A DNA stretch of 64,000 nucleotides from the NCBI RefSeq assembly GCF_022749515.1, contig NZ_CP094242.1, forward strand, positions 1,364,001-1,428,000. Direction: 5' to 3'. The first letter of the stretch is position 1. Each line of letters begins with the position of its first letter. Below the pieces are notes generated by a model, which saw only the letters and a list, made by a program, of their open reading frames with translations, had not been told where the DNA came from and searched no databases. The DNA is from Morococcus cerebrosus. Its GTDB lineage: Bacteria; Pseudomonadota; Gammaproteobacteria; Burkholderiales; Neisseriaceae. Both the position numbers and the translations under genes were made by a program. Below are positions 2,719-14,335 of the stretch, piece by piece.

Positions 2719-3605
2719 TGCAGAAATCCCGATTATCCTGGTTCCTGAAACTGATGCTGATGCTGTCGCTGGCGTTTCTGTATATTCCGCTGGTCGTCTT
2801 GGTCATCTATTCGTTCAACGAATCCAAGCTGGTTACCGTTTGGGGCGGCTTTTCGACCAAGTGGTACAGCGCATTGTTGGAAAACGACACTATCTTGGAA
2901 GCCGCTTGGCTGTCGCTGCGCATTGCCGCCGCATCCTCGCTTGCAGCCGTCGTTTTGGGCACGCTGGCAGGCTACGCGATGGCGCGCATCAAACGCTTCC
3001 GCGGCAGCACCTTGTTCGCCGGTATGATTTCCGCGCCTATGGTCATGCCTGACGTGATTACCGGTCTGTCCATGCTCCTGCTGATTATTCAGGTGCAAAT
3101 GTTCCTGCAAGGCAGCGAATTGCTCCAAAACCTGTACTTCGACCGCGGTTTCTTCACCATTTTCCTCGGACATACGACGCTTTGTATGGCATACATTACC
3201 GTCGTCATCCGCTCGCGTTTGGTGGAGCTGGATCAATCGCTCGAAGAAGCCGCAATGGACTTGGGTGCGCGTCCGCTGAAAATCTTTTTCGTCATCACCC
3301 TGCCCTTGATTGCCCCTGCCATCGCTTCAGGCTTCCTGCTCGGTATTACCCTGTCGCTGGATGATTTGGTGATTACCTCCTTCCTGTCCGGCCCTGGTTC
3401 TTCCACATTGCCGCAGGTGATTTTCTCCAAAATCAAGCTGGGTCTCGACCCGCAGATGAATGTGTTGGCAACCATTCTGATCGGCATCATCGGTACGCTG
3501 GTCATCGTCATCAATTATTGGATGATGCGCCAAGCAACCAAACGCGATCGGGAAGCCGCCGAAGCCTACCGTCAGGAAAAGCTCGCCGCAGAAAAAACAA
3601 ATTGA
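2718..3605 (+). CDS. potI: Polyamine ABC transporter permease, PotI-like
   Basis: Second inner-membrane permease of the importer, 295 residues, forming the channel with PotH. Hydrophobic spans are visible throughout, with the permease motif EEAAMDLGARPLKIFFVITLPL in the last third. It overlaps the end of potH by one base and is the last gene of the operon; a hairpin terminator follows within 50 bases. The C-terminal tail is charged and cytoplasmic. Together with the neighbouring FAD oxidase, the operon suggests uptake and oxidation of putrescine-type amines, which is inference from position. Confidence 0.88.
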   Translation: MQKSRLSWFLKLMLMLSLAFLYIPLVVLVIYSFNESKLVTVWGGFSTKWYSALLENDTILEAAWLSLRIAAASSLAAVVLGTLAGYAMARIKRFRGSTLFAGMISAPMVMPDVITGLSMLLLIIQVQMFLQGSELLQNLYFDRGFFTIFLGHTTLCMAYITVVIRSRLVELDQSLEEAAMDLGARPLKIFFVITLPLIAPAIASGFLLGITLSLDDLVITSFLSGPGSSTLPQVIFSKIKLGLDPQMNVLATILIGIIGTLVIVINYWMMRQATKRDREAAEAYRQEKLAAEKTN

Positions 3606-3675: not shown

Positions 3676-3716
3676 TTTCAGACGACCCTTAACTACCCTC
3701 CAAAGGTCGTCTGAAA
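3676..3716. terminator. Inverted pair of DNA uptake sequences
   Basis: TTTCAGACGACC at 3676-3687 and GGTCGTCTGAAA at 3705-3716 form a 12-bp stem. It lies between the pot operon and the FAD oxidase and may also serve DNA uptake. Confidence 0.6.
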
Positions 3717-3735
3717 CCACACAAAGCATTACCCC

Positions 3736-6569: not shown

Positions 6570-7703
6570 TTATAGTTCGAAATCGCCCAAATCGTCCGCG
6601 CTGACTTCCGAATCGATCTGACCGATTAAGTAAGAAGAAATTTCCACTTCCTGCGGCGCGACTTGTACGTTGTCGGACGACAGCCACGCGTTAATCCACG
6701 GAATCGGGTTTTGGGTCGCACCTTCGAATCCGGCAGGCAGACCGACCGCCTGCATACGCAGGTTGGTGATGTATTCGACGTATTGCGCCAGAATTTCCTT
6801 GTTCAGACCAATCATGGAACCGTCTTTAAACAGATAGGCCGCCCATTCTTTTTCCTGCTCCGCCGCTTTTTTGAAGAGTTTGAAACATTCGTCCTGCAAT
6901 TCGACGGCGATTTCCGCCATTTCAGGGTCGTCTGAACCGGCACGCATCAGGTTGAGCATATGCTGGGTGCTGGTCAGGTGCAGGGCTTCGTCGCGGGCAA
7001 TCAGTTTGATGATTTTGGCGTTGCCTTCCATCAACTCGCGCTCGGCAAAGGCAAACGAGCAGGCGAATGAAACGTAGAAACGGATGGCCTCCAACACGTT
7101 GACGCACATCAGGCAGAGATAGAGTTTTTTCTTCAACTCGCGCAAAGACACGGTAACGAGCTTGCCGCCGACATTATGCGTCCCTTCTCCCAACAGGTTG
7201 TAATACTGGGTGTATTCGATCAAATCATCGTAATAACAGGCGATGTCTTCGGCGCGGGCGATGATGTATTCGTTCTGCACGATGTCATCGAACACAACCG
7301 AGGGATCATTGACGATATTGCGAATGATGTGAGTATAGCTGCGCGAGTGGATGGTTTCGCTGAAGCTCCACGTTTCAATCCAAGTTTCCAGCTCGGGAAT
7401 CGACACCAAAGGCAGCAAGGCAACGTTCGGACTGCGGCCTTGAATGGAATCGAGCAGGGTTTGGTATTTCAGATTGCTGATGAAAATGTGTTTTTCGTGT
7501 TCGGGCAAGTTGGCGTAGTCAATACGGTCGCGCGACACGTCGATTTCTTCCGGCCGCCAGAAAAACGACAATTGTTTTTCAATCAGTTTTTCAAATACTT
7601 CGTATTTCTGCTGATCATAACGAGCGACATTCACCGGCTGACCGAAAAACATAGGCTCTTTAAGCGCATCGTTTTTGGTTTTGGAAAAGGTGCTGTATGA
7701 CAT
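6570..7703 (-). CDS. nrdB: Ribonucleoside-diphosphate reductase subunit beta (class Ia)
   Basis: Small subunit of aerobic ribonucleotide reductase. It holds the diiron-tyrosyl radical that starts reduction of NDPs to dNDPs in NrdA. The product has the helical-bundle metal-binding stretches ([39 protein letters not shown]) in the expected order. I chose [12 protein letters not shown] at 7703 (377 residues), the start I recall for neisserial NrdB; an in-frame ATG at 7724 would add seven residues and neither has a strong ribosome site. The C-terminal tail (DDLGDFEL) is the segment that docks to NrdA. In contrast to most genomes nrdA is not directly upstream: an abi gene intervenes. Confidence 0.95.
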
Positions 7704-7762
7704 GACTAGGTGTTCGCAGGACATGGGTTTTTCTCAGGTTTATTTAAATTTAGGAATTTGGA

Positions 7763-7822: not shown

Positions 7823-7851
7823 TTGCCTTAAATATAGCTGTTAGTTATAAT
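7823..7851 (+). promoter_or_regulatory. Sigma-70 promoter driving the small RNA
   Basis: TTGCCT at 7823-7828 and a perfect TATAAT at 7846-7851 are 17 bases apart. Initiation would fall near 7858, only a few bases before the hairpin RNA. No open reading frame follows on this strand, so the promoter most plausibly serves the RNA alone. Confidence 0.7.
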
Positions 7852-7857
7852 CCTCCC

Positions 7858-7918
7858 TAACAACTCCCCCAACTTTGCCAACCTACGCGGTTGGAGCAAC
7901 AAGGTTGGGGGCTTTCTT
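7858..7918 (+). ncRNA. Small structured RNA next to the AbiF-like gene
   Basis: About 60 nucleotides with a strong promoter in front and a T-rich tract at the end. An outer 11-bp stem (7866-7876 with 7901-7911, one G-U pair) encloses an inner 6-bp hairpin (CCAACC 7878-7883 with GGTTGG 7889-7894, loop TACGC). The 3' side carries a six-base bulge, AGCAAC. CTTTCTTTT follows. The U-tract exists only on this strand, so it is not simply the terminator of the converging abi gene, whose stop codon is at 7919. Small RNAs have been reported next to AbiF/Abi_2 genes, and this looks like such a partner. The call is inference from structure and position. Confidence 0.6.
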
Positions 7919-8842
7919 TTATCTTTGCCACAATCTCCAGTTTCGCGGATCATTTTCCAAACCCATATCGCGCAAACTTACAGCTTTATTCACGACATCA
8001 GGAAACTCATCCAGTAAAGCAAGGAGACGGCTTCCCCATTCGGTTCTCGGACAAATAACATCCAACATCCGTTTCATCAAGCAAAAATACACAAACGGTT
8101 TATTGATAGACAGTGATTTCCATTCTGCATCAGACAAACCTTTCAAGCTGGCTTTAAACGTAATGTCTCTATTCCATAATCGACTGTGATGTGCCGAAAC
8201 GTTGCGAATAAAGTTAAATGCGTGCAGATGTGTTTGTAGATGCTTACCATCTTTCAAACGATACAATTTGGCAATAGGGTCTTTATCTTTATTCAACATC
8301 CCTTTATACAGCATAGACATCGTGCCGAAATCCCATACTTCGCAGGCTACCCAGACAGGTAAGTCGGCATAATGTTCCAAATGATGTTTAACAAAACTGG
8401 TTTTCTTTTCGCGCTCGACCAGCTTGTTATGCCTATCCAGCCATTCAGCATGGTCGAAGCCTGGGGTAGAATATTTGCTATCCTTGTAAGCCAAGGGACC
8501 ATGCCGCCCCAATGTATGGGCAATATTTACCCGAAGAGCTACTTCAATTCTTTCCAGTGCATCTAATGCCAATTGCCGCAATTTCTTATCGAACATATAA
8601 AGGCTTTTGACATCTTCAAAACGAGTATCTGTAATAAACTCATCCAACCTGCTCTTAGGATTTTCAGGAGCAAATTGTCGGAAAGAGTAAAAATAACCGC
8701 TTAATCGGTAATAACCGATGGTGCGTAAATATCCTAATGCCTTTTTCTCATCATCAATCTGCAATCCTCTACTTCTCAGAATTTCCAACTGCTCATCGTA
8801 AGATTTCCAAAGCTTGGGTTCTTTTATCTGCTTGCTTTGCAT
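7919..8842 (-). CDS. Abi family protein (Abi_2/AbiF-like, two HEPN RX4H motifs)
   Basis: Predicted abortive-infection protein, 307 residues from the ATG at 8842. A TTG at 8875 would add eleven residues and start two bases after nrdA, but has no better ribosome site. The N-terminal signature LRTIGYYRLSGYFYSFR is typical of Abi_2 (AbiD/AbiF). Two HEPN-type RX4H motifs are visible: RVNIAH near residues 104-109 and RNVSAH near 213-218, the second followed by HSRLWNR. HEPN motifs form metal-independent RNase sites, and AbiF-type proteins have been proposed as relatives of Cas13. The gene sits between nrdA and nrdB on their strand, with a small RNA converging on its 3' end. It probably reduces phage growth by RNA cleavage; this is family-based inference. 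Confidence 0.85.
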   Translation of the reverse strand: MQSKQIKEPKLWKSYDEQLEILRSRGLQIDDEKKALGYLRTIGYYRLSGYFYSFRQFAPENPKSRLDEFITDTRFEDVKSLYMFDKKLRQLALDALERIEVALRVNIAHTLGRHGPLAYKDSKYSTPGFDHAEWLDRHNKLVEREKKTSFVKHHLEHYADLPVWVACEVWDFGTMSMLYKGMLNKDKDPIAKLYRLKDGKHLQTHLHAFNFIRNVSAHHSRLWNRDITFKASLKGLSDAEWKSLSINKPFVYFCLMKRMLDVICPRTEWGSRLLALLDEFPDVVNKAVSLRDMGLENDPRNWRLWQR

Positions 8843-8877: not shown

Positions 8878-11157
8878 TTAAATCTTACAAGCCCCGCCTG
8901 CGCAGCCGTCATCCTGAATATCAGTCTGCGTATCGTCCGCTCCGTCGCGGGTGTTGTGGTAGTACAGGGTTTTGACGCCGTATTTGTAGGCGGTCAGCAG
9001 GTCTTTGAGCATTTGTTTCATGGAAACTTTGTTGCCTTCAAATTTGCCCGGGTCGTAGGCAGTGTTGGCGGAAATCGCCTGATCGACGAATTTTTGCATC
9101 ACGCCGACAAGTTTCAGGTAGCCTTCGTTGCCCGGAAGCTGCCACAGGGTTTCGTAGGCGTCTTTCAGGGTTTCAAATTCCGGTACGACCTGTTTCAGGA
9201 TACCGTCTTTCGATGCTTTAACCGTTACCAGTCCGCGCGGAGGCTCGATGCCGTTGGTGGCGTTGGCGATTTGCGAACTGGTTTCAGACGGCATGAGTGC
9301 GGTCAGGGTGGAGTTGCGCAGACCGTATTTGACGATGTCGGCGCGCAGGCTTTCCCAGTCACACAACAGCGGTTCGCTGCACACGGCATCCAAGTCTTTT
9401 TTGTAGGTGTCGATGGGCAATTTGCCTTGCGAATAAACGGTTTGGTTGAACAGCGGGCATGCGCCGTATTCTTTGGCGAGGTTCACCGATGCTTTGAGCA
9501 GGTAATACTGCATGGCTTCAAAGGTGCGGTGGGTCAGGCCAAGCGCGGAATCGTCGCTGTAACGGACGCCGTTTTTCGCCAGATAGTAGGCGTAGTTGAT
9601 AACGCCGATGCCGAGCGTGCGGCGGTTCATGGTCGCGGTGCGGGCGGCTTCGACCGGATAGTCTTGATAATCCAACAAGGCATCGAGTGCGCGCACGGTC
9701 AAATCGGCAAGCCCTTCCAGCTCATCCAAGCTGTTTAATGCGCCCAAGTTGAAGGCGGACAGGGTACACAGGGCGATTTCGCCGTTCGGGTCGTTGATGT
9801 TGTCCAGCGGTTTGGTCGGCAGGGCGATTTCCATGCATAGGTTGGACTGGTGCACGGGCGCGACGCGCGGGTCAAACGGGCTGTGCGTGTTGCAGTGGTC
9901 AACGTTTTGGATGTAGATACGTCCCGTTCCGGCGCGTTCCTGCATCAGCGTGGAAAACAAATCGGTAGCCGACAAGGTGCGTTTGCGGATGTTCGGATCT
10001 TGCTCGTATTTTGTGTAGAGACGCTCGAATTCGTCTTGGTCGGCAAAAAATGCGTCGTACAGGCCGGGAACTTCGTTGGGCGAGAACAGCGTGATGTTGC
10101 CGCCTTTAATCAGGCGGGTGTACAGCAGGCGGTTGATTTGCACGCCATAGTCCAACTGGCGGATGCGGTTGTCTTCCACGCCACGGTTGTTTTTCAACAC
10201 CAACAGGCTTTCGGCTTCGATATGCCACAAGGGATAGAACAAAGTTGCCGCGCCGCCGCGCACGCCGCCCTGCGAGCAGGATTTAACCGCCGCTTGGAAC
10301 ATTTTGAAAAACGGGATGCAGCCGGTGTGTTGCGCTTCGCCGCCGCGGATTTCGCTGCCCAAGCCGCGGATACGTCCGGCGTTGATACCGATGCCCGCAC
10401 GTTGGGAAACGTATTTCACAATCGCGCTGGTGGTGGCGTTGATGGAATCCAAACTATCGTCGCATTCAATCAATACGCAGCTTGAGAACTGGCGCGTAGG
10501 CGTGCGCACGCCGCTCATAATCGGGGTCGGCAGCGATACTTTAAATGTAGAAACGGCGTCGTAAAAGCGTTTGACGTAATCCAAACGGGTCTCTTTCGGG
10601 TATTTGCTGAAGAGGCACATCGCCACCAAAATATATAAAAACTGCGGCGTTTCATAAATCTGGCGGGTCACGCGGTTCTGCACCAGATATTTGCCTTCGA
10701 GCTGCTTCACGGCAGCGTAGGAAAAGGTCATGTCGCGGCTGTGGTCGATATAGGTATTCAGCTCGTCAAACTCTTCGCGGCTGTAATCTTCGATGATGTG
10801 GCGGTCGTATTTGCCCGCATCGGTGAGTTTTTTAACGTGGTCGAAGAGATGCGGCGGTTCGAACTCGCCGTAAGCGATTTTGCGCAGGTGGAAAATCGCC
10901 AAACGCGCAGCGAGATATTGATAGTCGGGCGTATCCTGCGAAATCAGGTCGGCAGCCGCCTTGATGATGGTTTCGTGGATGTCGTCGGTGCGGATGCCGT
11001 TGTAAAACTGGATGTGCGATTTGAGCTCGACTTGCGATACGGAAACGTTTTTCAAGCCTTCCGCCGCCCAAGTAACGACGCGGTGGATTTTGTCTAAGTC
11101 GAGATTTTCCAAACGTCCGTCGCGCTTGGTTACTTTCAAATCAGTCGGTGCATTCAT
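8878..11157 (-). CDS. nrdA: Ribonucleoside-diphosphate reductase subunit alpha (class Ia)
   Basis: Catalytic subunit of aerobic ribonucleotide reductase, reducing NDPs to dNDPs in the cytoplasm, 759 residues. An N-terminal ATP-cone (TKRDGRLENLDLDKIHRV) gives allosteric control. The RQFSSCVL segment holds an active-site cysteine, and NLCMEI with its surrounding motif holds the radical-site region. The C-terminal tail DDGCAGGACKI carries the redox shuttle cysteine pair. I chose MNAPTDLK at 11157 because GGATGGAG precedes it at the right distance; the frame stays open 60 bases further. The gene is followed within 40 bases by the abi gene. A 42-residue gene at 15651 copies this C-terminal tail. 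Confidence 0.95.
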   Translation of the reverse strand: MNAPTDLKVTKRDGRLENLDLDKIHRVVTWAAEGLKNVSVSQVELKSHIQFYNGIRTDDIHETIIKAAADLISQDTPDYQYLAARLAIFHLRKIAYGEFEPPHLFDHVKKLTDAGKYDRHIIEDYSREEFDELNTYIDHSRDMTFSYAAVKQLEGKYLVQNRVTRQIYETPQFLYILVAMCLFSKYPKETRLDYVKRFYDAVSTFKVSLPTPIMSGVRTPTRQFSSCVLIECDDSLDSINATTSAIVKYVSQRAGIGINAGRIRGLGSEIRGGEAQHTGCIPFFKMFQAAVKSCSQGGVRGGAATLFYPLWHIEAESLLVLKNNRGVEDNRIRQLDYGVQINRLLYTRLIKGGNITLFSPNEVPGLYDAFFADQDEFERLYTKYEQDPNIRKRTLSATDLFSTLMQERAGTGRIYIQNVDHCNTHSPFDPRVAPVHQSNLCMEIALPTKPLDNINDPNGEIALCTLSAFNLGALNSLDELEGLADLTVRALDALLDYQDYPVEAARTATMNRRTLGIGVINYAYYLAKNGVRYSDDSALGLTHRTFEAMQYYLLKASVNLAKEYGACPLFNQTVYSQGKLPIDTYKKDLDAVCSEPLLCDWESLRADIVKYGLRNSTLTALMPSETSSQIANATNGIEPPRGLVTVKASKDGILKQVVPEFETLKDAYETLWQLPGNEGYLKLVGVMQKFVDQAISANTAYDPGKFEGNKVSMKQMLKDLLTAYKYGVKTLYYHNTRDGADDTQTDIQDDGCAGGACKI

Positions 11158-12605: not shown

Positions 12606-12651
12606 GCTTTTTTCCTTATTTCGCAATCATTGTTTTGTTTGCCTACTTTCA

Positions 12652-12688
12652 TTTTCAGACGACCTCATATCTTTCAGGTCGTCTGAAA
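12652..12688. terminator. Inverted pair of DNA uptake sequences after the helix-hairpin-helix gene
   Basis: TTTTCAGACGACCT and AGGTCGTCTGAAAAC face each other; the second copy also encodes the last residues of the small gene that ends at 12674. Confidence 0.6.
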
Positions 12689-12919
12689 ACGCTGTTTTGC
12701 CCACTCTATCGCGGCGGAAACGGCAGCTTTTGCCTGCGGACTGTTTTTCCAACAAGTCGAGCCGGTCAATTTTGCGCCTTGTTCCAAAACGTCATCCAAA
12801 TTCGCTGCCGCCAGCGTGGTAACATCATCCAAACCCATTTGCTGCAAACGCTGCAATACAGTTTTACCTATGCCTTTGACGGCAAGCAGGGATTGGGCCT
12901 CTTCATCGGTAAAAGGCAT
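12674..12919 (-). CDS. Small helix-hairpin-helix protein (Cdd1/pathogenicity-locus-like)
   Basis: An 81-residue protein from the ATG at 12919, preceded by AAAAGGAGACGAA as ribosome binding site. It contains a helix-hairpin-helix motif (LLAVKGIGKTVLQRLQQMG) followed by a short cysteine-containing helix region (TGSTCWKNSPQ). This resembles the Cdd1 family, whose role is unknown; the motif suggests DNA binding or a structural role. The last residues RFQTT and the stop codon are spelled by an uptake sequence, so the C-terminus may have been shaped by it. The frame is open further upstream into the tandem repeat, which I consider noncoding. Confidence 0.65.
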   Translation of the reverse strand: MPFTDEEAQSLLAVKGIGKTVLQRLQQMGLDDVTTLAAANLDDVLEQGAKLTGSTCWKNSPQAKAAVSAAIEWAKQRFQTT

Positions 12920-12940
12920 TTCGTCTCCTTTTATTTTGCA

Positions 12941-13432
12941 GGCGTATTGACTAAATATAAGCCTACGGCTTATCGCCCTCTCCCTAACCCTCTCCCGCTG
13001 GGAGAGGGAATAGATTGGCAGGCAGTCCCAAATTTGGCGGCCACTTCCAAACAATTAAGTTATTGTGCCCTTATCCTCTTCTTCACGAAAGAAGGCATGT
13101 CGTCTCTTTTGATTTTTCAAGCGTATCGACTCAATATAAGCCTGCGGCTTATTACCCTCTCCCTAACCCTCTCCCGCGGGGAGAGGGGATAGATTGGCAG
13201 GCAGTCCCAAATTTGGCGGCAACTTCAAAAGGATTAGGTTTCTGTGTCCTTACCCTCTTCTTCACGAGAGAAGGTATGCCATCTCCTTTGATTCTGGAGG
13301 CGTATCGACTAAATATAAGCCTACGGCTTATCGCCCTCTCCCTAACCCTCTCCCACGGGGAGAGGGGATAGATTGGCAGGCAGTCCCAAATTTGGCGGCA
13401 ACTTCAAAAGGATTAAGTTTCTGTGCCCTTGA
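12941..13432. repeat. 179-bp tandem repeat, about 2.7 copies, with internal palindromes
   Basis: The anchor ATATAAGCCTRCGGCTTA recurs near 12955, 13134 and 13313, a period of 179 bases. Each unit carries a palindromic block of the CCCTCTCCC...GGGAGAGGG type and the segment AGATTGGCAGGCAGTCCCAA. The first unit is the most diverged. The units are open in some frames but the translations are repeat peptides without ribosome sites, so I treat the block as noncoding. It lies directly beside an IS5-family element. Confidence 0.8.
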
Positions 13433-13493
13433 CTTCCGACCTCCGAGGGTGAAGAGAACAAATCATCAGGTTTGCTTTTCCCGAAAATCCTAA

Positions 13494-14335
13494 GAGCGTG
13501 TTCATAGTCTTCGTAGCAGGACTCCCAAGAAAGCCAAAGCTACCATTTGCAGACTGGTACTCAACTTACGCTCGCAGTTTTTCCAAAGCCGCCTGTTCTT
13601 TTCCAACCAGGAAAAGCTGCGCTCTACTACCCATCGCTTCGGCAATACTGCAAAACGGTGCAATTCGTTTCGTTTGGCAATCTCTACCTCTGCACCAATC
13701 AACTCCTGTACCGACGAAGTAAATGCCTTACCCGTGTAACCACCGTCAGCAAGGATTTTTTGTATCGCACCAAGATTATCCCGCCCACGTTCCAATGCCA
13801 CCAGGCAGCCTTTTCTATCCGTAACATCCGCCGTCGTTACCGCAAGGGCATGCGGCAAACCTTGCGTGTCAACCGCTATATGTCGCTTGATACCGCTAAT
13901 CTTCTTGCCCGCATCGTAGCCTTTTTCCATGGCGGTATCCGTGTTCTTCACACTCTGCGCATCAATAATCAGGAAAGTAGTTGCTTCATGGCGCCCCTGC
14001 TTGCGGCGCTCCGCAACTACCTGATTTTTTTAATGCTTCCTCAAGGATGCTGATGCCACTCTCGCGTGGTTCGGTCCATCTCTGGAAGTAGGAATGCACG
14101 GTGCGCCATTTGGGGAAGTCGCCCGGCAAAGCGCGCCAGGAGCAGCCAGTGCGTTGCAGGTAGAGAATGGCACAAAAGACATCGTACAAGTCCACCTGGC
14201 GTGGCGCTGTGCGTTTACGGGCACTTTCCAGCAGGGGAAGGAGAGGCGCAAATTGCTCGCGACTGATATCGCTTGGGTAGGTTTTTCTGTTCATGCCGAT
14301 AGTTTACAGCAGAGGCTGAGACAATGAACACGTTC
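13494..14335 (-). mobile_element. IS5-family insertion sequence (IS1031/IS427-like), copy 1
   Basis: An 842-bp element bounded by imperfect inverted ends (GAGCGTGTTCAT at the left, ATGAACACGTTC at the right). It is flanked by TAA on both sides, consistent with the three-base TNA duplication of the IS1031 group. It encodes a DDE transposase in two frames. A second 842-bp copy in the same orientation lies at 39491-40332, differing by a few substitutions. The element sits between iscU and the tandem repeat, in a gap of the isc cluster. Confidence 0.85.
13502..14294 (-). CDS. IS5-family transposase in two overlapping frames (copy 1)
   Basis: The first frame (14294 down to 13986, 102 residues) encodes the DUF4096-type N-terminal domain (SDISREQFAPLLPLLE...GCSWRALPGDFPKW). 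The second frame (ending at 13502) encodes the DDE catalytic part, with LIIDAQSVKNTD upstream of its first ATG, KRHIAVDTQG, ADGGYTG and the ERSFSWLEKNRRL motif. The frames join at a run of seven adenines on the coding strand (14025-14031). Loss of one A, a +1 shift or transcript slippage would fuse them. Both copies keep the same run, so this looks programmed, not a decay mutation. Confidence 0.75.

Follow-up and report, generated by a model that had tools for sequence, protein, structure and literature searches.

A predicted small RNA convergent with an AbiF-family gene in Morococcus cerebrosus, and candidate decoy copies of such RNAs in phages

An abi gene lies between nrdA and nrdB in a 64,000-nt stretch of the Morococcus cerebrosus genome (the window; contig NZ_CP094242.1), and a short structured RNA is predicted on the opposite strand at its end. 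Is this RNA the partner of the abi protein, or is it a signal that ends transcripts? The first-pass annotation, made from the letters alone, had read the pair as an RNA-protein module, consisting of an AbiF-family HEPN protein and its own adjacent small RNA. This reading was supported, and the hairpin recurs at homologues. Quite probably the locus is an AbiF-type toxin-antitoxin module of two parts, unusually arranged, in which the RNA inhibits AbiF directly.

The Abi_2 signature noticed in the first pass was confirmed. The abi product matched PF07751 in Pfam with E = 2.4e-53 and 181.6 bits, against a curated cut-off of 25.6, and PADLOC named it AbiD (E = 8.8e-66). Its AlphaFold2 model had a mean pLDDT of 96.8. 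The sole significant PDB match of this model in a Foldseek search was the PbAbiF dimer with its ncRNA (8vz6_A, E = 1.3e-16, TM 0.85), and a sequence profile also matched PbAbiF (E = 7.8e-55) at 28% identity. Compared at the protein level, the two systems are thus alike in fold and sequence profile, and both have a bulged RNA. The protein belongs to the AbiF/AbiD group, as it has the AbiF fold and the HEPN motif RN..AH. It had been called a double-HEPN protein, and two RX4H strings do occur in it. Among 147 aligned homologues, His109 of the first string (RVNIAH) was found in 77 and was missing from 70, with Tyr in 38, as against all 147 for Arg213 and His218 of the second. The double-HEPN reading was rejected, the conserved motif being found only at 213-218, and the two HEPN motifs per chain of the Cas13 type were not seen, the first RX4H being poorly conserved. 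As there is one conserved HEPN motif per chain, the protein should act as a dimer, like published AbiF proteins.

The site between nrdA and nrdB was confirmed by Pfam. Since nrdA ends so close to the abi start codon (Table 1), abi may be transcribed from the nrdA transcript. It had been suggested that the site mattered through dNTP supply as a phage target. We matched nrdB in 43 of 46 genomes and inspected 30 nrdB loci; the end of nrdA was within reach in 26 of the 30, with gaps of 65-1400 nt, and abi occupied the gap in the window's genome and in G044 only. Ten cargo frames were scanned: six had a Pfam domain (NYN-LOTUS, CAP12/TIR, Abi_alpha twice, EcoRII and NERD), four had none, and five had a PADLOC match, one of them weak. 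For the EcoRII locus the nrdA end lies beyond the available stretch, and its location between nrdA and nrdB is only presumed. Across the genus the cargo at this spot varies: the gap often holds defence-type genes and is otherwise short (L257-L286). As other genomes of the genus carry Abi_alpha, TIR-type, NERD or NYN-LOTUS genes or short gaps there, the dNTP-targeting logic was unneeded and we dropped it. Elsewhere in the window, 12635-13493 is a repeated stretch with plus-strand frames that share the peptide PLPNPLPxGEG, probably a dispersed repeat, and two open frames at 13502-14294 resemble an IS transposase.

The small RNA and abi are arranged tail to tail (Table 1). The hairpin at 7866-7911 had a folding energy of -28.1 kcal/mol (z -5.3), and none of 200 shuffles was equally stable. 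The covariance model of its class, R2, matched 7862-7921 with 74.4 bits, which is by construction, the hairpin being a training row. A simple terminator scan, with a loop limit of 8 and bulges disallowed, did not list it. The promoter that had been proposed is present as TTGCCT-17-TATAAT at 7823-7851; alone it is at chance level (3 in the stretch vs a shuffle mean of 3.0), and its support came from other loci, in a set of 65 convergent ones. The nested hairpin with a U-tract, proposed as the end of the RNA, also stood, with one correction: the U-tract runs into the abi stop codon, where the first pass had the RNA ending one base away. A repeated word forms an inverted repeat beside this promoter, and we take it to be uptake-sequence-like. 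A structured RNA gene here adjoins the gene of a putative toxin RNase, as in type III toxin-antitoxin systems. ToxI-like antitoxins are tandem repeats; the window has a single hairpin.

Table 1. Positions of the abi gene, the predicted small RNA and neighboring features in the window
Feature	Position	Strand	Remark
nrdB	6570..7724	-	Pfam
Inverted repeat TTCAGACGACC..GGTCGTCTGAA	7764..7802	.	Between RNA promoter and nrdB, by eye
-35-like box TTGCCT of small RNA	7823..7828	+	Position conserved across loci
-10-like box TATAAT of small RNA	7846..7851	+	Position conserved across loci
Predicted small RNA (5' leader, bulged hairpin, U-tract)	7858..7920	+	Start inferred from -10 box
Hairpin (outer stem 12 bp, inner stem 6 bp)	7866..7911	+	Folding; covariation in class A
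5-nt 3'-side bulge AGCAA	7895..7899	+	Flanking GGA and ACA invariant in six class A rows
U-tract TTTCTTTT	7913..7920	+	Overlaps abi stop codon (complement of 7919-7921)
abi (AbiF/AbiD, Abi_2 family)	7919..8842	-	307 aa, intact, TAA stop
HEPN motif R213-N-V-S-A-H218	8189..8206	-	Arg213 and His218 in 147/147 homologues
nrdA	8878..11157	-	Ends 35 nt before abi ATG

The abi protein was present in 23 of 83 Neisseriaceae genomes, and nearly all inspected copies had a hairpin with a U-tract directly past the stop codon on the opposite strand. We then compared the best 80 of 572 GTDB genome loci together with 68 viral-contig loci. At the best 80 of 572, a hairpin with a U-tract at or below -12 kcal/mol was found on the convergent flank in 58 cases, upstream in sense in 33, downstream in sense in 12 and upstream in antisense in 21; at or below -18 kcal/mol, the convergent flank retained 40 of 80. 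Antisense hairpins with a U-tract were seen at 67 of 255 control gene ends at the first threshold and at 24 of 255 at the second. This gene-end comparison omitted L097 (early stop), L184 (too short) and 17 of the 68 viral loci, which were near-copies or truncated. Because 67 of the 255 neighboring gene ends pass too, energy alone is weak evidence; the energy-only scan was dropped as too permissive, and a strict RNA motif and covariance models were used instead.

The strict motif was written after the loci had been inspected and was applied equally to all four flanks. In a quick tree of 147 Abi_2 proteins with a midpoint root, from which L097 was also excluded, one clade comprised 79 rows (SH-aLRT 94), including L005 (a Neisseriaceae genome) and L066 (Stenoxybacter), one sequence present in two collections and counted twice among the 79; their identical Abi_2 protein ties the window to the Neisseriaceae. 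Within this clade the motif was found on the convergent downstream flank in 65 rows, upstream in sense in four, and on the remaining two flanks in none. The corresponding counts in the other 68 rows were two, 16 and none. Most of the 14 clade rows that failed the convergent motif had hairpins by other analyses, and L145 and L148 had their RNA upstream. The first pass had named conservation of the hairpin beside homologous abi genes as a test of its reading, and the 65 of 79 rows answer it in favor. In six Neisseriaceae loci (L015, L017, L018, L019, L020 and L022), abi is split by stops or frame changes and the adjoining RNA is kept.

The convergent set holds three RNA classes. Class A includes the window, one further Neisseriaceae genus, Haemophilus haemolyticus and a Moraxella osloensis plasmid; class B has the core CCUCUGC..GUACG, and class C the core UCGG..GCUGCU. 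In 19 class B hairpins, nine of 14 pairs changed on both sides, in 40 cells vs 12.9 in shuffles, and pairing stood at 94.6% vs 28-48% when slid. In class A, both-side changes were seen in five of 18 pairs among six sequences; R2 was trained on six sequences, two of which are orphans or remnants. Promoter-like matches before the hairpin in the 65 convergent loci averaged 9.0 of 12, vs 6.0 in mononucleotide shuffles. The match was at least 9 in 40 of the 65 and absent from one locus, and the -10 box lay mostly 9-13 nt before the hairpin, which gives a steady promoter distance.

A second model, R1, was built from the 19 convergent class B hairpins only and run on 98 loci (577 kb). It gave 52 matches, of which 37 were convergent, 14 upstream in sense and one unrelated. 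The convergent matches came from 36 loci, 17 being training rows and 19 not; L005 reached only E = 0.68. In L067 the convergent RNA occurs twice beside one abi, at 3446-3493 and 3679-3718. The upstream matches lay directly before abi in 14 loci with E from 3e-8 to 9e-3, including the near-copies L129/L136, L131/L154 and L145/L148. In both layouts the RNA has the toxin gene on its 3' side. Since the direction of the gene alone differs, inversion of abi beside an unchanged RNA seems the simplest account. Because the upstream layout also turns up within the convergent clade, at L145 and L148, the inversion would have happened at least twice or been reversed. The Rfam abiF RNA, RF03085, had no match in the window, either at the gathering threshold or at E <= 10, and none in 37 convergent-set loci (17 + 20 scanned). 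It was detected upstream of abi in one of 20 other loci scanned (L141). RF03085 is also a short hairpin, and has GCCUCU on the 5' side as in the sister class B RNAs.

Could the hairpin be a mere transcription terminator, bidirectional between converging genes, with an RNA that has no role of its own? It stands at a gene end with a U-tract, as do hairpins at the control gene ends counted above. Against this, the U-tract serves the anti-abi direction only, in 65 loci a promoter closely precedes the hairpin at a steady spacing, the bulge and the core nucleotides are conserved, with covariation in the stems, and the same RNA model detects upstream-sense RNAs and finds few other genomic matches. 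R1 and R2 together gave 15 matches in 83 Neisseriaceae genomes, 12 of them adjoining an intact or broken abi. Six were R2 matches (three adjoining an intact abi, one a broken abi, and two without), and nine were R1 matches (eight beside abi, one without). The three without abi sit among phage-like genes: in G053 between tail genes (PHROGs), in G048 with a tail gene on one side and a head-closure/tail-tube-type gene on the other, and in G017. The G017 hairpin (L247) was set aside as probably false, being a perfect stem without a bulge, like a plain terminator, near what by eye is a lysis-like gene. Across 369 genomes of the class, R1 gave five matches, two of them at an abi gene, intact in one case and broken in the other, and three without. 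L357 is probably a relic, with an abi-like tail after the RNA by eye; L356 adjoins a vsr-like gene by eye; and L358, within an open frame, is probably a chance match. We therefore consider a terminator without further function unlikely.

The proposed role of the small RNA as an antitoxin draws on published AbiF systems. The passages of PMC12373285 describe AbiF-Cd of the C. difficile prophage phi027 as toxic, with R202/H207 needed for toxicity, and its RNA RCd22 as binding and neutralising the protein in trans and also attenuating abiF transcription. The window resembles this system in its Abi_2 protein, the single HEPN motif RN..AH and an adjacent structured RNA with its own promoter and terminator. 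RCd22, as described in the same passages, lies upstream on the same strand and contains two abiF motifs (RF03085), whereas the window RNA is one hairpin, placed downstream and convergent, and is without an RF03085 match. In PbAbiF, one RNA is bound per monomer (passages of PMC12737573). By analogy, the abi product would be a HEPN RNase working as a dimer with one motif per chain. The small RNA would be transcribed constantly from a promoter of its own on the strand opposite abi, would end at the bulged terminator hairpin in the abi stop codon, and would bind AbiF via this hairpin and keep it off. When a phage halts host transcription or destroys RNA, the small RNA might be lost first, and AbiF would then cut RNA and arrest the cell. 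Because the RNA and the gene converge, cis attenuation of abi is impossible, and neutralisation by binding would therefore have to carry the load.

Direct RNA-protein inhibition may be joined by transcriptional collision or antisense read-through. That the RNA mainly regulates abi expression by antisense action or collision, without binding the protein, seems to us still less likely than a plain terminator. The convergent layout and the end of the RNA over the abi stop codon suit such a role, and in L010 and L027 the abi frame extends into the hairpin. On the other side, the predicted overlap with the abi reading frame in the window is just 3 nt, the same hairpin in the upstream-sense layout cannot be antisense to abi, and published AbiF RNAs bind the protein in trans (passages of PMC12373285). 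Cas13-like guidance of AbiF to phage RNA, which the first pass had also entertained, is hardly credible: AbiF/AbiD HEPN domains do group with those of Cas13 (passages of PMC12165695), but we saw a single hairpin with no variable spacer, array or repeat, its conserved parts are the stems and the bulge, each chain has one HEPN motif, and a 2025 review presents AbiF as a toxin that works unguided and has an RNA for its antitoxin (passages of PMC12737573). AbiF is regarded as an ancestor of Cas13, and its RNA as a forerunner of crRNA, in passages of PMC12165695 and PMC12737573.

We also scanned viral contigs for the RNA alone. With one pattern, the class B core was found in 49 IMG/VR contigs. The 5' outer strand, which the pattern left unfixed, paired at 6/6 in 45 of the 49, vs 0.76% of random draws; the other four (L319, L337, L342 and L343) were set aside as chance. 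An Abi_2 gene was present in two of the 45 (L295 and L323) and absent from 43. Together with L296, found by another pattern, the class B orphans came to 44 contigs in 20 clusters by flanking DNA. For class A, three orphans were found, with R2 scores of 69.0 bits (L293), 79.6 (L352) and 58.6 (L353), L293 being the same element as the prophage of G053, a genome of the window's genus. Chance matches made up four of five in the first class A scan (L290, L291, L292 and L294), one of four in the second (L351) and two of three in the class C scan (L297 and L299). PF07751 was detected in three of 50 whole records (L295, L323 and L298) and in none of the four of a second set, many viral records being fragments. 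On the 3' side, which is the abi side in both layouts, at least 300 nt were present in 46 of 47 orphans; L305 had 29 nt.

Among 27 inspected orphan hairpins, 22 were intergenic, vs 29% of random 40-mers. The C-terminal abi pattern W.LW before a stop followed none of the 27, a weak control because only 27 of 147 abi proteins carry it. Covarying structure was kept in 24 orphans (five pairs, 28 both-side cells, none of 500 shuffles as high), in an alignment that was model-fitted. Of the 20 clusters 17 were scanned, and nine had phage-type PHROG neighbors and eight had none. The neighbors included terminase, portal, head-tail adaptor, integrase, DNA polymerase, exonuclease, ribonucleotide reductase and carbamoyltransferase. 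The window hairpin had no blastn match in annotated phages, and two phage orphan hairpins had partial weak matches only.

Some placements recurred. The orphan RNA lies within phage tRNA arrays in L330, L346, L306, L314 and L334, directly past the tRNA CCA end in L330, L334 and L346. In L301 (9160-9202) and eight near-copies it comes after the gene for a phage ribonucleotide reductase (large subunit, PHROG), a placement that echoes the nrdA-nrdB site of the window. Class A RNAs without abi lie between tail genes in L287 (9411-9469, the G053 prophage) and L293 (12806-12864), with TATAAT directly upstream. Elsewhere in the G053 genome, a class B RNA accompanies an AbiF gene (L012).

The first pass had stated that the hairpin at many loci without abi would speak against the link. 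This held in part: such loci do exist, in phages and prophages, which suggests counter-defence rather than a refutation. An intact RNA in a phage without the toxin gene, as expected of a decoy, was seen in these viral contigs, many of which are fragments. Stand-alone RNAs of the window's class come from a prophage in the same genus and from two further viral contigs. We would put at about even the chance of the following joint reading: solitary AbiF antitoxin RNAs of many unrelated phages, the window's class included, are decoys that disarm host AbiF in an arms race of RNA mimicry, and the flip of the gene shows cis attenuation to be dispensable. The rival is that the phage copies are relics of lost modules or have some other phage function; the chromosomal L357 looks like such a relic.

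The decoy reading has parallels in other systems. Stand-alone RNA parts of host defence are carried by phages in the case of phiTE pseudo-ToxI against ToxIN (passages of PMC3475682) and of the RNA anti-CRISPRs, or Racrs (passages of PMC10651486). An abiF-family RNA is found in the genome of cyanophage S-CREM1, and Rfam counts abiF RNA in three bacteriophage genomes; the S-CREM1 RNA belongs to RF03085, one phage is described, and an anti-AbiF decoy reading is absent from the passages of PMC9964418. AbiF with an RNA antitoxin is already known; the decoy role of the phage RNAs against AbiF is proposed here. Neither the convergent AbiF-RNA layout nor phage decoys of AbiF RNA were found in the literature searched, whose coverage left Weinberg 2017 and Zilberzwige-Tal 2025 outside.

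A clade in which the RNA is convergent to the toxin gene separates the two roles of RCd22, cis attenuation and trans neutralisation, and it is therefore directly testable which of them matters. Should the phage copies prove to be decoys, they would form an RNA-only class of counter-defence against AbiF, detected with a rerunnable model, and would argue that AbiF exerts real pressure on phages in nature.
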